A DNA stretch of 64,000 nucleotides from an uncultured Christensenellaceae bacterium (GTDB lineage: Bacteria; Bacillota; Clostridia; Christensenellales; UBA3700), in assembly GCA_944381365.1 (NCBI GenBank), contig CALWKW010000001.1, forward strand, positions 124,001-188,000, read 5' to 3'. Numbering within the stretch: the first letter of the stretch is position 1; each line of letters opens with the position of its first letter. Under the pieces are notes generated by a model. It made no database searches. It was not told the origin of the DNA and was given only the letters and a program-made list of their open reading frames with translations. The translations under genes and the position numbers were made by a program. Below are positions 44,966-49,989 of the stretch, in pieces.

Positions 44966-45730
44966 TCAAAAACACTCTTTTATTTTGCTGAGTGCATTTT
45001 TTTCAAGTCTGCTTACTTGAGCCTGAGATATACCCAATGATTGAGAAATTTCCATTTGAGTCTTTCCCGAATAATATCGCATTGTAAGCACATCTTTTTC
45101 TCTTTGAGGCAAAGCCTTTATGCCCTCTCTCAAAGCAAGGCTTGTGGACCATACTTCTTCATTCTGGGAACTGTCGGCAATCTGCTCCATCAAAAGCAAA
45201 CCGTCTTCTCCGTCATTATATACGCATTCTTGCAAAGATACCGTCTCACTCACAGCATCGAGTGCACACACCACTTCTTTTAAAGGTATGTCAATTTCTT
45301 CGGCAATTTCAAGCATTGTGGGAGATGTGGCATTCTTTAATTCTAAAAGCTCTTTTGCTTTTAAAGCTTTGTATGCCGTATCCCTCATGCTTCTGCTTAC
45401 TTTTATGCCCGTATTGTCTTTTATAAATCTTCTTATTTCACCGGATATCATCGGTACCGCATAGGTCGAAAATCTGACATTGAATTTGCTGTCAAAACCA
45501 TCGATTGCTTTCATAAGTCCTACCATACCCGACTGAAACAAATCATCGCTGTTTGCCCTGTTTGAAAATCTTTGCACAATAGACAAAACAAGACGAATAT
45601 TTGCAATGACGAGTTTGTCTTTTGCGTCTTTATCACCTTGTTTTGCTTTTATCAACAAGTCTTCGCACTCTTTTTGTTTGAGTTTTGGAAGGGAGTGAGT
45701 ATCTATACCGTTTATTACAACTTTGTGCAT
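44966..45730 (-). CDS. sigG: Forespore sigma factor sigma-G
   Basis: Late forespore sigma factor. The 254 residues begin KVVINGIDTHSLPKL, typical of sigma-G, then region 2 (NIRLVLSIVQRFSNR, DDLFQSGMVGLMKAID, FSTYAVPMISGEIRRFI), region 3, and region 4 (GKTQMEISQSLGISQAQVSRLE). No pro-sequence is present, as expected. GGAGG precedes the ATG. A CATAATT about 25 bases upstream might be a forespore-type -10; this is weak. It follows sigE by 110 bp, as in Bacillus and Clostridia. Confidence 0.95.
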   Translation of the reverse strand: MHKVVINGIDTHSLPKLKQKECEDLLIKAKQGDKDAKDKLVIANIRLVLSIVQRFSNRANSDDLFQSGMVGLMKAIDGFDSKFNVRFSTYAVPMISGEIRRFIKDNTGIKVSRSMRDTAYKALKAKELLELKNATSPTMLEIAEEIDIPLKEVVCALDAVSETVSLQECVYNDGEDGLLLMEQIADSSQNEEVWSTSLALREGIKALPQREKDVLTMRYYSGKTQMEISQSLGISQAQVSRLEKNALSKIKECF

Positions 45731-45840: not shown

Positions 45841-46542
45841 TTATACCATTTTTGACATTTCTTTTTTGAGTTTGTTTATTACCTTCTTTTCAAGTCTCGA
45901 TATATATGACTGAGAGATTCCAAACATATCGGCTATTTCCTTTTGAGTTTTTTGAGGCGAACCCAAAATTCCGAATCTTAATTTGACGATTTGCCTTTCT
46001 CTTGGCGGCAACTTATTGAAAGAGGCAATAAGTATGTCTTTTTCTACATCGCTTTCCAAATCTTTGTATATTACATCGCTTTCAGTGCCGAGGACATCTG
46101 AGAGCAAAAGCACATTCCCTTCTCCGTCAACATTCAAAGGTTCGTCCAAAGACAATTCGTTGCGAGTTTTTACGACCTTTCTCAAGTGCATCAAAATTTC
46201 ATTTTCTATACACCTGCTTGCGTATGTGGCAAGTTTTATTTGTTTGCTGTCATCAAATGAATTTACGGCTTTGATAAGTCCGATAGTGCCCACCGATATC
46301 AAGTCTTCTATATCCACATTGGTATTTTCGAATTTTTTTGCAATATAGACCACAAGTCTTAAATTGTGCTCTATAAGCATTGTTCTGGCATTGCTGTCAC
46401 CTTGAATGTATTTTGCCACAAGAAGTTTTTCTTCTTCAGGGTCCAAAGGCTCAGGCAAAGCCTCGCCTCCGCCGATGAAATCCACTGTTTTGTCGTCAAT
46501 ATTGAATATCTTTGACAAAAACCTTTTAATTTTTTCCCACAT
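45841..46542 (-). CDS. sigE: Sporulation sigma factor sigma-E precursor
   Basis: Early mother-cell sigma factor. The 233 residues have a pro-sequence of about 22 residues ending near [14 protein letters not shown], equivalent to the Bacillus YIGG processing site, then region 2 ([46 protein letters not shown]) and region 4 ([21 protein letters not shown]). GGAGGAG precedes the ATG. It lies 14 bp after spoIIGA, whose product should activate it. Confidence 0.97.
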
Positions 46543-46556
46543 AGCTCCTCCAAACG

Positions 46557-47330
46557 CTATAAATCACAATGCAGAACGACTTTGTATTCTCCTTTTATAC
46601 AATCGGATATCGCTGCCATAACTCCGTATATCTTGTCTTTTGTATTTTCTACCTCAAGATACTCCAATGGAAAAACTTTAAGCTTTTGTTCGCCTGATAC
46701 GGTGTTTACTTTTGTATTGTCTTTTATATTTATAAGCTCATTGGGCTCATAAAGCTCCAATGCTACGCTTTTATCTATAATCACTGTGGGCTTATTGTGA
46801 AAATAAAGTTTGTTTCCGCTGTCAAAATAAGCCTTGCATTTTATTTTTTTGCCGTTTGCGGCAATAATTATCTCACTTTCAAAGCTGCTTTTTCGTTTTG
46901 CAAGCGTAATGTACTTATACAATAATTTATATAGACAAATCAGCACAATACCGCCTGTTCCTACATAAAATGGTACGAGAGACGCACTGACTTTTCCTGA
47001 ATTGACGCTAAAAATATTTTCTATTCCCGATGTAATTCCTCCGAGAGCAAAAGTAAGAGCAAAAAATACCACACACAATACGATATATTTTTTTACCTTG
47101 CACTTTCCCGCAATGATTCCGACCATTACCATAGAAAGCAATATTTTCAATATAAATATATTGAGCCAATCATAAAGCGGCAATAATACTGCATACACGG
47201 TGCCTATTGCCGAGGACAAAAACACCGCCAATTTGTTTATTTTCCACCTTGTGAATTTGAGTGTCAATGTCAATACCAACGCATTTATGAGAAGGTTGTT
47301 TAGTACCACATATTCTATATACACCTGCAT
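46557..47330 (-). CDS. spoIIGA: Pro-sigma-E processing protease SpoIIGA
   Basis: Membrane aspartic protease that matures pro-sigma-E in the mother cell. The 257 residues comprise five hydrophobic helices (about 5-25, 34-52, 56-76, 81-98, 117-138) and a C-terminal protease domain with the catalytic Asp170 in [11 protein letters not shown]. It is shorter than the Bacillus protein (309), mainly after the membrane part. The ATG at 47330 fits the family start but has no RBS; TATAAT ends six bases upstream. Confidence 0.93.
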
Positions 47331-47336
47331 ATACGC

Positions 47337-47380
47337 ATTATAAAATATAATATATAAAAAAAAGTTCCAATCATGTCGAA
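47337..47380 (-). promoter_or_regulatory. spoIIG-type promoter with 22-bp spacer and 0A box
   Basis: TTGGAA (47365-47370) and TATAAT (47337-47342) are separated by exactly 22 bp, the unusual spacing of the Bacillus spoIIG promoter, which needs Spo0A~P. A perfect 0A box TGTCGAA (47374-47380, plus-strand reading) lies at about -44 to -50. A weaker box (TGTCAAT on the minus strand) is at 47396-47402. Confidence 0.65.
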
Positions 47381-47389
47381 AGGAACTTC
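47355..47389 (-). terminator. ftsZ terminator, overlapping the spoIIGA promoter
   Basis: AAGTTCC/GGAACTT stem (47382-47388 with 47362-47368) followed by a U-run of eight on the minus-strand transcript. The downstream arm contains the -35 element of the spoIIGA promoter and the loop contains the 0A box. Confidence 0.8.
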
Positions 47390-47488
47390 TTTTGTATTGA
47401 CATTTTTTGTTTGTTTCTCGATATCAAATTGACAAATCTTTTGATTTTTTTATCAAAAATCTAGGATATAGGTCTATAATCAAGAAAA

Positions 47489-48745
47489 TTATTGATTATT
47501 TCTCTTTCCAAACAATCTCTTCATAAATGAAGGAGGTTCGGGGTTGTTGTCCTGTTGTTTGGGCAAAGAATCTATTCTTGTAGGCTGAACAGGTTGTTGT
47601 TGAGGCTGTCCCATGGGAGCAGGTCTTTGTCCCATCATAGGAGGAATATTCTGTTGAGGTTGACTATCATAAATACGAGGTCTTACGGGCTGTTGTTGTG
47701 CCATACCTGCAAAATTAGGTCTTACCTGTCCTTGAATTTGTCCGTTTTGTTGGATACCCTGCTGAGGATTGGGAATATTGTCTGCCTTACAACCTGTAGC
47801 AATCAAAGTGACAACGACTTTGTTTGTCATATTCTTATCAAAGCTGTGTCCGAATATATAAGTAACATCCTTTGAGATAAGACTAGAGATATAGTTGTTG
47901 GCATCTTCAAGTTCGCCGTTTGTTAGGTCATAACCTGTCTGAATACTGAAGATGATACCCGTAGCTCCTGCAATACTTGTGTTGAGAATATCAGCATTTG
48001 CTGCCATCTTAACAGCTTTGAGCATTCTGTCAGAAGAGCTGTCGCCTTCGCACTCGCCTATACCCATGTGTGAATATCCTTTGCCTTTCATAATCGTCTT
48101 GATATCTGCAAAATCAAGATTTACAAGACTAGGATAATTGATAAGGTCACTTATGCTCTTTATAGAGTTCTTAAGAATCTCGTTTGCTTTTGAATAAGCT
48201 TCTGTCATGAGAATATTCTTGTCATATTCAAGCAACTTCTGATTGGGTATAACAATAAGAGAATCGACATATTGTTTAAGTTTTTCAATACCTGCTTCCG
48301 CAACAGCCATTTTTCCTGCCTCAAATCTGAAAGGCTTTGTGACTATTGCTATAACAAGCATATCGGGATTGAGTTCTCTTGCAAGTTTTGCAATCACAGG
48401 AGAAGCTCCCGTACCTGTACCGCCACCCATTCCGGCAGCAATAAAAAGCAAATCGGTGTTTTCGAGCATATCCATCAAAGTCTTTCTGGATTCTTCAGCG
48501 GCTTTTTCGCCGATTTCGGGTTTTGCTCCCGCACCCTGACCTCTTGTAAGCTCTACACCTATCTGTATTCTTTTGTCTTCATCTACTTTTGACATATTGA
48601 GATGCTGGAGATCTGTATTGACTACATAAAAATCCACATCCGTAACACCAAAATCAATCATACTGTTGACAGCATTAGCACCGCAACCGCCTACGCCTAC
48701 GACCTTTATTTTTGTAGCTGTCTGCAATTTGCACTCCTCAGGCAT
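47489..48745 (-). CDS. ftsZ: Cell division GTPase FtsZ
   Basis: Tubulin-like protein forming the Z-ring. The 418 residues carry VVGVGGCGANAVNSM, the GTP-binding GGGTGTG (107-113) and a GTPase core to about 315, then a Q/P/M-rich linker of about 85 residues and the C-terminal peptide PPSFMKRLFGKRNNQ for partner binding. The core residues before the T7 loop are slightly divergent (NLDFADIKTIMKG retains the catalytic Asp). GGAGGT precedes the ATG; it follows ftsA by 15 bp. Confidence 0.96.
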   Translation of the reverse strand: MPEECKLQTATKIKVVGVGGCGANAVNSMIDFGVTDVDFYVVNTDLQHLNMSKVDEDKRIQIGVELTRGQGAGAKPEIGEKAAEESRKTLMDMLENTDLLFIAAGMGGGTGTGASPVIAKLARELNPDMLVIAIVTKPFRFEAGKMAVAEAGIEKLKQYVDSLIVIPNQKLLEYDKNILMTEAYSKANEILKNSIKSISDLINYPSLVNLDFADIKTIMKGKGYSHMGIGECEGDSSSDRMLKAVKMAANADILNTSIAGATGIIFSIQTGYDLTNGELEDANNYISSLISKDVTYIFGHSFDKNMTNKVVVTLIATGCKADNIPNPQQGIQQNGQIQGQVRPNFAGMAQQQPVRPRIYDSQPQQNIPPMMGQRPAPMGQPQQQPVQPTRIDSLPKQQDNNPEPPSFMKRLFGKRNNQ

Positions 48746-48760
48746 AATTCGTACCTCCGA

Positions 48761-49954
48761 TTAACCAAATATTTTTTGTAATAAACTGTTTTTACTATTC
48801 ATTTTGTCCGCAACTTCCAATGTCGCAAACGCTGAAACAAAATAAGGCTTGTCCCATCCTGCCGTATTGCCTTTGAGCAATTTTACTTCTTTTGCAAGCA
48901 AACGCTCAAAATATTTTGTCGCACCTCTTATCTCGCTCAATCCACCGCCTGTAAGATAAAAATTCGTAAGATAATTTATCGAACATACAGCATTGGAAGC
49001 ATAATTCGTGCGAGAATTTGTGAGTTCGTCAATCTCTTTTATTTCATAAATGCACGCATTTACAAAATCCACAAGATTTTCTGCAATCTGACAATGCAAC
49101 AAATTGTTTATATCACGAGCTTTGCACTCATATTGTACATTGCCTCTCATATATTGGTATGTGCTCATCTCATCGCTTTCTATATTGAGAGTAATCTGCG
49201 ACAGCATTTGTTCGGCTGTCTCATAACCTACTCCGAGAGCCTGAGCCAAAGCATCAACCATAAAGCCATATCCGTAAGAAGCGGTCTTTTTGTATTTGAT
49301 GCCGTCCCCTTTGACAAAAGCCAAAGTAGTGGAAGCATACCCCACATCTATGAGTATAGCACCGTTTATTCTAGATTCTTTGTCTATAAACTGAGTACCC
49401 TCAGCCCATACAGAATCTATAAACTTGACATATTTAAAACCTATCTTTGCCGCTATGTCGCAAACCGAATGAATAAATTCGTCTTTTAAGAAAATATACG
49501 ACATATTTGCATAAATGCTTGCGGCACTTTCGCCAATAGGCGAAATGGTGTGCTCTTCTCCATCGAGAATATACTCGAGTGCTGACGAACACAATACGCT
49601 GTAATCAGCCACATTGAAGCTGTCAGCCTTGTTGTGAATATCTTTTATCATAGACTCGTTTATGGTTTTTTTCTTTTTGAGATTTGACAATAACCCGCTT
49701 GTCTTAATAAAAGTAAACTCTGACGGAACGGATACATACAAAGTCTTGCTTTTGAGATTATAATTGCTTTTCTTTATGACTTCGGCAATATAAGAAGGCA
49801 AAGAATCCTTGTCTACCCACTCGCCGTTGTAATAGCCTGGATATTGTACAGATGCAAAATTTTTGATGTTGAAATTATTGTCGGAGGATTTTTGTCCCAC
49901 AACAAACACCAATTTTCCTGAACCTATATCCAATACAGCAATTTCTTCTCTCAT
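48761..49954 (-). CDS. ftsA: Cell division protein FtsA
   Basis: Actin-fold protein that tethers FtsZ to the membrane. The 397 residues show AVLDIGSGKLVFVVG (phosphate 1), LIDVGYASTTLAFVKGDGI (phosphate 2) and YLTGGGLSEIRGA (adenosine motif); a C-terminal amphipathic segment (NSLLQKIFG) is compatible with membrane targeting. It is rather divergent from model FtsAs. The ATG lacks an RBS, and a consensus promoter abuts it, so ftsA is probably leaderless; this promoter sits outside the rest of the dcw series and drives ftsA-ftsZ. Confidence 0.92.
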   Translation of the reverse strand: MREEIAVLDIGSGKLVFVVGQKSSDNNFNIKNFASVQYPGYYNGEWVDKDSLPSYIAEVIKKSNYNLKSKTLYVSVPSEFTFIKTSGLLSNLKKKKTINESMIKDIHNKADSFNVADYSVLCSSALEYILDGEEHTISPIGESAASIYANMSYIFLKDEFIHSVCDIAAKIGFKYVKFIDSVWAEGTQFIDKESRINGAILIDVGYASTTLAFVKGDGIKYKKTASYGYGFMVDALAQALGVGYETAEQMLSQITLNIESDEMSTYQYMRGNVQYECKARDINNLLHCQIAENLVDFVNACIYEIKEIDELTNSRTNYASNAVCSINYLTNFYLTGGGLSEIRGATKYFERLLAKEVKLLKGNTAGWDKPYFVSAFATLEVADKMNSKNSLLQKIFG

Positions 49955-49960
49955 AACTAT

Positions 49961-49989
49961 ATTATAATATTATAATATTATTAAGTCAA
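49961..49989 (-). promoter_or_regulatory. ftsAZ promoter, leaderless arrangement
   Basis: TTGACT (49984-49989), 17-bp spacer and TATAAT (49961-49966), six bases before the ATG at 49954. A second TATAAT at 49969-49974 has no matching -35. Confidence 0.8.

Follow-up and report, generated by a model that had tools for sequence, protein, structure and literature searches.

The spoIIGA gene of this uncultured Christensenellaceae bacterium lies directly behind ftsZ, and the short DNA between the two genes holds the marks of a promoter and of a terminator in the same place. How spoIIGA is started from such a site, and whether the sharing of DNA between the end of one gene and the start of the next has a regulatory role, are the questions raised by this locus. 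The window, meaning here the whole stretch of 64,000 nucleotides that was analysed, carries ftsA, ftsZ, spoIIGA, sigE and sigG in this order on its minus strand (Table 1). The gap between ftsZ and spoIIGA is 158 bp and contains, in the reading direction, a stem-loop followed by eight T, then TATAAT and the ATG of spoIIGA. The promoter directly adjoins spoIIGA-sigE, as identified by the PF03419 match and by sigE and sigG downstream, and a full-length Spo0A is encoded in the genome (C-terminal domain match 140 bits). A second ORF of 115 residues, holding the Spo0A C-terminal domain only (64.6 bits), was noticed at L002 (G000:C1:48323-48631, minus). An Rfam search gave RNase P as its sole result. 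Judged from the sequence, the locus most probably harbours a Spo0A-activated spoIIGA-sigE promoter of leaderless form, which shares its DNA with the ftsZ terminator.

Table 1. Features of the ftsA-sigG region, with positions counted in the window
Feature	Position	Strand	Remarks
ftsA-like gene	48761..49954	minus	predicted leaderless; TTGACT-17-TATAAT (49989-49961), 6 nt, ATG
ftsZ	47489..48745	minus	named by sequence character and position; strong Shine-Dalgarno CGGAGG
ftsZ intrinsic terminator stem (47390-47378 with 47372-47360)	47360..47390	minus	fold, covariation
0A box TTCGACA (plus strand TGTCGAA)	47380-47374	minus	perfect consensus; -50 to -44 from A of ATG
TTGGAA hexamer (-35 of the earlier note)	47370-47365	minus	22 bp to TATAAT
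TTGGAAC, candidate degenerate second 0A box / -35 region	47364..47370	minus	10 bp behind strong box, 21 bp before -10
T8 run	47356..47363	minus	overlaps stem foot, in promoter spacer
22-bp spacer TTGGAA-TATAAT	47343..47364	minus	contains T-run; length fixed in genus
-10 element TATAAT	47337..47342	minus	ends 6 nt before ATG
spoIIGA start codon ATG	47328..47330	minus	A = predicted +1 (leaderless)
spoIIGA (pro-sigmaE protease), 257 aa	46557..47330	minus	Pfam PF03419 match 118 bits
sigE	45841..46542	minus	named by sequence character and position; strong Shine-Dalgarno GGAGGAG
sigG	44966..45730	minus	named by sequence character and position

Promoter elements and their conservation

Read 5' to 3' on the minus strand, the DNA upstream of spoIIGA is AAGAAGTTCC TTTCGACATGATT GGAACTTTTTTTTATATATTATATTT TATAAT GCGTAT ATG. 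An earlier note on this DNA had described a 0A box, the hexamer TTGGAA as -35, a 22-bp spacer and TATAAT, and all of these are present where it had placed them. It had further proposed a promoter of the spoIIG type under Spo0A control and suggested examining the spacing in relatives. For this, 17 genomes of the genus were sampled, 14 of which have a complete SpoIIGA start, with SpoIIGA proteins 58-68% identical to that of the window. A 0A box at most one base off the consensus is found exactly at -50 to -44 from the ATG in 14 of 14 congeners, and each of them has TATAAT, or in one case TATACT, at -12 to -7, although these loci are related and the counts therefore not independent. The family sample consists of 33 loci from six genera; here, as in the distance counts for the outgroups below, a box was counted as present when at least 5 of 7 positions matched the 0A consensus. 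In 29 of the 33 family loci, exactly 31 bp separate the end of the box from the -10, and any other distance occurs in 0-2 loci. The spacing is thus strongly conserved, and the spoIIG-type reading has in this respect survived. One family locus, L039, is exceptional in having a weak -10 and lacking a good 0A box.

The part of the proposal that did not stand is TTGGAA as a conserved -35. Within the family, the 0A box, the -10, RGAA at -38 to -35 and T as the base at -1 stand out as conserved, and they do so equally in the 17 family loci that have no strong hairpin. The -10 and its distance are kept, but the hexamer at -35 is degenerate: relatives carry ACGGAA, ATAGAA, TCGGAA and the like in place of TTGGAA, with RGAA alone preserved. 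TTGGAA is a poor -35 to begin with, and was rejected as a true one because it is not conserved. Since its GA follows that of the 0A box at a distance of ten bp, we infer that RGAA may represent a degenerate second Spo0A half-site; the candidate second box matches about 3-4 of the 7 0A positions.

The specificity of the arrangement was assessed by searching 84,980 named genomes (257 Gb) for the fixed-geometry pattern TTCGACA-N5-RGAA-N22-TAWWAT-N6-ATG. Only 25 matches were obtained. Of these, 20 coincide exactly with the beginning of a SpoIIGA gene, and the remaining five precede ORFs of at most 32 codons. The occurrence of this promoter pattern at spoIIGA is beyond chance. A cultured species, Anaerocaecibacter muris, shares the element and is among the matches; its SpoIIGA is nearest to those of family f32, which belongs to this order too.

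Within the genome of the window itself, looser combinations of a 0A box and a -10 were found 26 times. Of these, 20 were inspected, and the majority proved to be intragenic. The layout was consequently set aside as a general Spo0A arrangement in this genome, as placement at a start codon was seen, besides spoIIGA, only at L324 (20 of 26 inspected). The gene at this locus (G000:C2:193813-193853) encodes a lipoprotein with a HEAHEWW metallopeptidase-like motif; its tandem 0A-like boxes read TGTGACA GCT TTCGACA, and its -10 and ATG are five nt apart. It is a possible second leaderless Spo0A target.

The predicted leaderless start

The earlier note had overlooked the position of the -10 relative to the start codon. 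In 33 of 33 family loci, six nt lie between the -10 and the ATG, and with these six intervening bases the +1 falls on the A of the ATG. In the window no Shine-Dalgarno sequence is found at spoIIGA, in contrast to the strong ones at sigE and ftsZ, and a strict test for a leaderless start, which requires that a Shine-Dalgarno be lacking, is passed by 32 of the 33 family loci, the exception being L039 with its weak -10. A pyrimidine just before +1 is the usual initiator preference, and the base at -1 is a pyrimidine (T or C) in all 33 family loci; outside the family, this holds for 28 of 31 leaderless-type loci compared with 18 of 57 loci with a Shine-Dalgarno.

In an alternative view the translated spoIIGA message has a leader, being made from a different promoter or by read-through out of ftsZ, and the TATAAT near the ATG is fortuitous. 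This view could draw on the poor -35 and on the AT-rich DNA, in which TATAAT-like words are common. A consensus scan of the minus strand between the two genes revealed no alternative sigma-A-like site with 16-18 bp spacing, however, and such a transcript would have the terminator in its way and no Shine-Dalgarno at spoIIGA to be translated from. A fortuitous TATAAT is also difficult to reconcile with a six-nt gap that is invariant in the 33 family loci and recurs at 31 of 39 leaderless-type loci elsewhere. We regard a leadered spoIIGA message as very unlikely.

Beyond the family, a leaderless spoIIGA is predicted for at least eight further families within the order. Outside the window's family, the order comprises 37 leaderless-type loci, 37 loci with a Shine-Dalgarno and 31 fitting neither description, the leaderless type being represented in families f3, f7, f9, f16, f18, f19, f20 and f32 and by single loci of three others. 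Among the class outgroups, 2 of 67 look leaderless and starts are mostly led by a Shine-Dalgarno, so that, as far as start regions tell, a leaderless spoIIGA is not the case in most Clostridia. In family f28, genomes of 0.8-0.9 Mb that were scored 98-100% complete (G072, G095, G115, G150 and G164) still carry spoIIGA.

The same signature was surveyed at gene level in 400 kb of this genome (G000:C1:1-400000; 334 genes). Exact TATAAT-N6-ATG occurs at nine of the 334 genes, compared with 0-3 genes for each of the gaps 0-5 and 7-16. All nine have a pyrimidine at -1 and one has a Shine-Dalgarno, which is found in 26 of 39 genes when TATAAT stands 20-35 nt away. Among the nine, a 22-bp spacer is required to reach the best -35 match only at spoIIGA. 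Across the 17 congeneric genomes, TATAAT-N5-Y-ATG was counted 667 times, against 196 times at two nt more and 295 times in reversed form. In the same 400 kb, roughly 5% of genes carry a TATAAT-like -10 at this six-nt distance from their ATG and mostly no Shine-Dalgarno (L228-L247), and these genes resemble uvrC, miaB, rimO, surE, tlyA and others; leaderless initiation looks common in the genus. The six-nt form is also that of the neighbouring ftsA (48761-49989), which has a good -35 spaced at 17 bp and no Shine-Dalgarno at its start. Gap profiles were also made for single relatives from 100 kb each, a sample too small for ranking families by their use of leaderless starts.

In Clostridioides difficile, 15 potential leaderless cases have been described, and leaderless starts are uncommon in the Clostridia that have been studied (PMC7438776). 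The predicted leaderless spoIIGA, together with dozens of further genes, suggests that a large and mostly uncultured lineage of Clostridia uses leaderless initiation more than its studied relatives do. Such wider use would affect gene calling and models of translation, and is testable in the cultured relative A. muris.

The ftsZ terminator and its overlap with the promoter

Besides the stem-loop with its T8 run, no terminator was found in the window between ftsZ and spoIIGA. The folding energy of the strand is -16.8 kcal/mol compared with -7.5 +/- 2.4 for shuffled sequences (z -3.9), the 0A box spans the loop side of the stem, and the 5-nt loop GACAT belongs to the 0A box region. When 11 sequences with the hairpin were aligned on a fixed centre, 91.6% of cells were paired, a percentage that is flattered by the choice of sequences that fold, and compensatory changes are seen in 6 of 13 pairs. 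Sliding one of the arms as a control gave 34-62% pairing and zero or one compensated pair; neither the compensations nor this control depends on the fold-based choice alone. The hairpin is conserved as an RNA structure with the T-run directly after the stem. These compensatory changes, and the finding that the overlapping hairpin is the only terminator detected in 10 of the 14 congeners and in both loci of genus g3, bear out the earlier statement that the terminator is made from the same DNA as the promoter.

One may ask whether the stem-loop is no terminator and merely results from the near-inverted orientation of two 0A half-sites (TTTCGACA...GGAAA), with ftsZ and spoIIGA forming one transcription unit. 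Relatives without the hairpin do still show a short TTTC/GGAA complementarity derived from the half-sites. Yet the stem reaches well past the half-sites and is covariant, a run of seven or eight T comes after it in the hairpin bearers, and a conventional terminator replaces it in several relatives, all of which makes such an origin highly improbable. The preferred reading remains that of a true terminator sharing promoter DNA.

The distribution of the hairpin is uneven. Two of the congeners (L008 and L012) have a weak hairpin plus a separate stem further upstream, and two (L007 and L010) have none, though their contigs end nearby. It is absent from the sampled members of three sister genera, where the promoter is unchanged. 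Genera g2, g4 and g5 contribute several loci in which a conventional terminator precedes the ATG by 60-340 nt. L056 and L058, which belong to the distant family f18, carry an overlapping hairpin of different sequence and another terminator further upstream too. The hairpin was rejected as an essential part of the promoter, since many relatives have the same promoter without it. By the compensatory changes and this distribution, the hairpin is real but optional. The constant need appears to be the insulation of spoIIGA from ftsZ, to which sharing DNA with the promoter would be one recurrent solution.

This variation also bears on whether the overlap is a regulatory device, in which Spo0A~P or a parked polymerase alters ftsZ termination, ftsAZ expression or read-through into spoIIGA. 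The 0A box, the downstream arm and the T-run do physically coincide, and they do so in the 10 congeners, in both members of a sister genus and, similarly, in L056 and L058. Against this, four congeners and the sampled members of the three sister genera keep the promoter without a strong overlapping hairpin, several of them have a terminator at the distances from the ATG given above, and L056 and L058 possess an additional one. A promoter that stays while the hairpin varies does not need the overlap, and compaction is the simpler explanation; a regulatory device is unlikely. The suggestion in the earlier note that the overlap couples division to entry into sporulation found no support, the hairpin being absent, weak or moved upstream in 4 of 14 congeners with the promoter unchanged. 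It is likewise distinctly doubtful that Spo0A~P bound in the terminator DNA switches 3'-end formation of ftsZ, such that one 60-bp element would control both the end of ftsZ transcription and the leaderless opening step of the sporulation programme in the mother cell.

For the Spo0A-activated leaderless promoter that we favour, the following course of events may be envisaged. During growth, polymerase leaving ftsZ would form the hairpin and stop in the T-run, leaving spoIIGA insulated. At the onset of sporulation, if the analogy with Bacillus spoIIG holds, Spo0A~P would bind the perfect box at -50 and would also occupy the degenerate one lying ten bp further downstream, at about -40 to -34, in the place of the -35. 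Bound Spo0A~P would then, by the same analogy, place sigma-A polymerase on TATAAT despite the poor -35. From the spacing, transcription is predicted to begin at the A of the spoIIGA ATG and the message to be translated from its bare 5' AUG without a Shine-Dalgarno. A start at this A would leave the hairpin outside the spoIIGA mRNA.

Relation to known systems

The spoIIG promoter of Bacillus subtilis is a sigma-A promoter activated by Spo0A~P, with a 0A box upstream of the -35 region and a spacing that exceeds the usual 17 bp, and is a textbook case of activator-dependent transcription from a badly spaced promoter. A search across the phylum turned up no locus recognisable as one of Bacillus. 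The spoIIGA locus of the window resembles the B. subtilis layout in gene order, sigma-A -10, 0A box upstream of the -35 region and long spacing, and differs from it in its degenerate -35, in the -10 abutting the ATG of a predicted leaderless gene, and in the overlap with the ftsZ terminator.

Other Clostridia share the -10 and the long spacing, C. difficile being an example. Among 44 class outgroup loci with an exact TATAAT, a strong 0A box stands 21 bp before the -10, over the -35, in 26 (T[TC]GACA-21-TATAAT). This placement agrees with the sigma-A promoter GTGACA/TATAAT mapped for C. difficile spoIIGA, and in a spo0A mutant of that species sigE was down 240-fold (PMC3789822); Spo0A also binds the spoIIGA region (PMC3485338). 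The strong box of the window's family thus lies one helical turn (ten bp) further upstream than in the class outgroups, as if the family had kept the register and shifted the strong site upstream, a shift whose direction is inferred. In the outgroup loci L097-L100 and L102, a pair of 0A-like boxes was observed, at 34 and at 21 bp upstream of the -10; their period is 13 bp and not 10 bp, and a box at 34 is present in 11 of the 44 loci. Natural variants such as those of the window's family, with a strong 0A box one turn upstream and a decayed -35, offer test pieces for the positioning of polymerase by Spo0A. In the other Clostridia, with the strong box over the -35 at 21 bp, spoIIGA mostly has a leader and a Shine-Dalgarno, whereas in the window's family the leader is predicted to be absent.

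As an intrinsic terminator, the element is conventional in being a stem-loop followed by a T-run between tandem genes, and differs from others in that its loop and arm also serve the gene behind it, as activator site and -35 region. Leaderless mRNAs are common in mycobacteria (PMC4633059). The predicted spoIIGA message is like known leaderless mRNAs in having a -10 about 6-7 nt before ATG or GTG, no Shine-Dalgarno, and a purine at +1 after a pyrimidine; it is unlike them in belonging to a lineage of Clostridia in which most genes have a Shine-Dalgarno, and in that the trait is fixed at a key sporulation gene.
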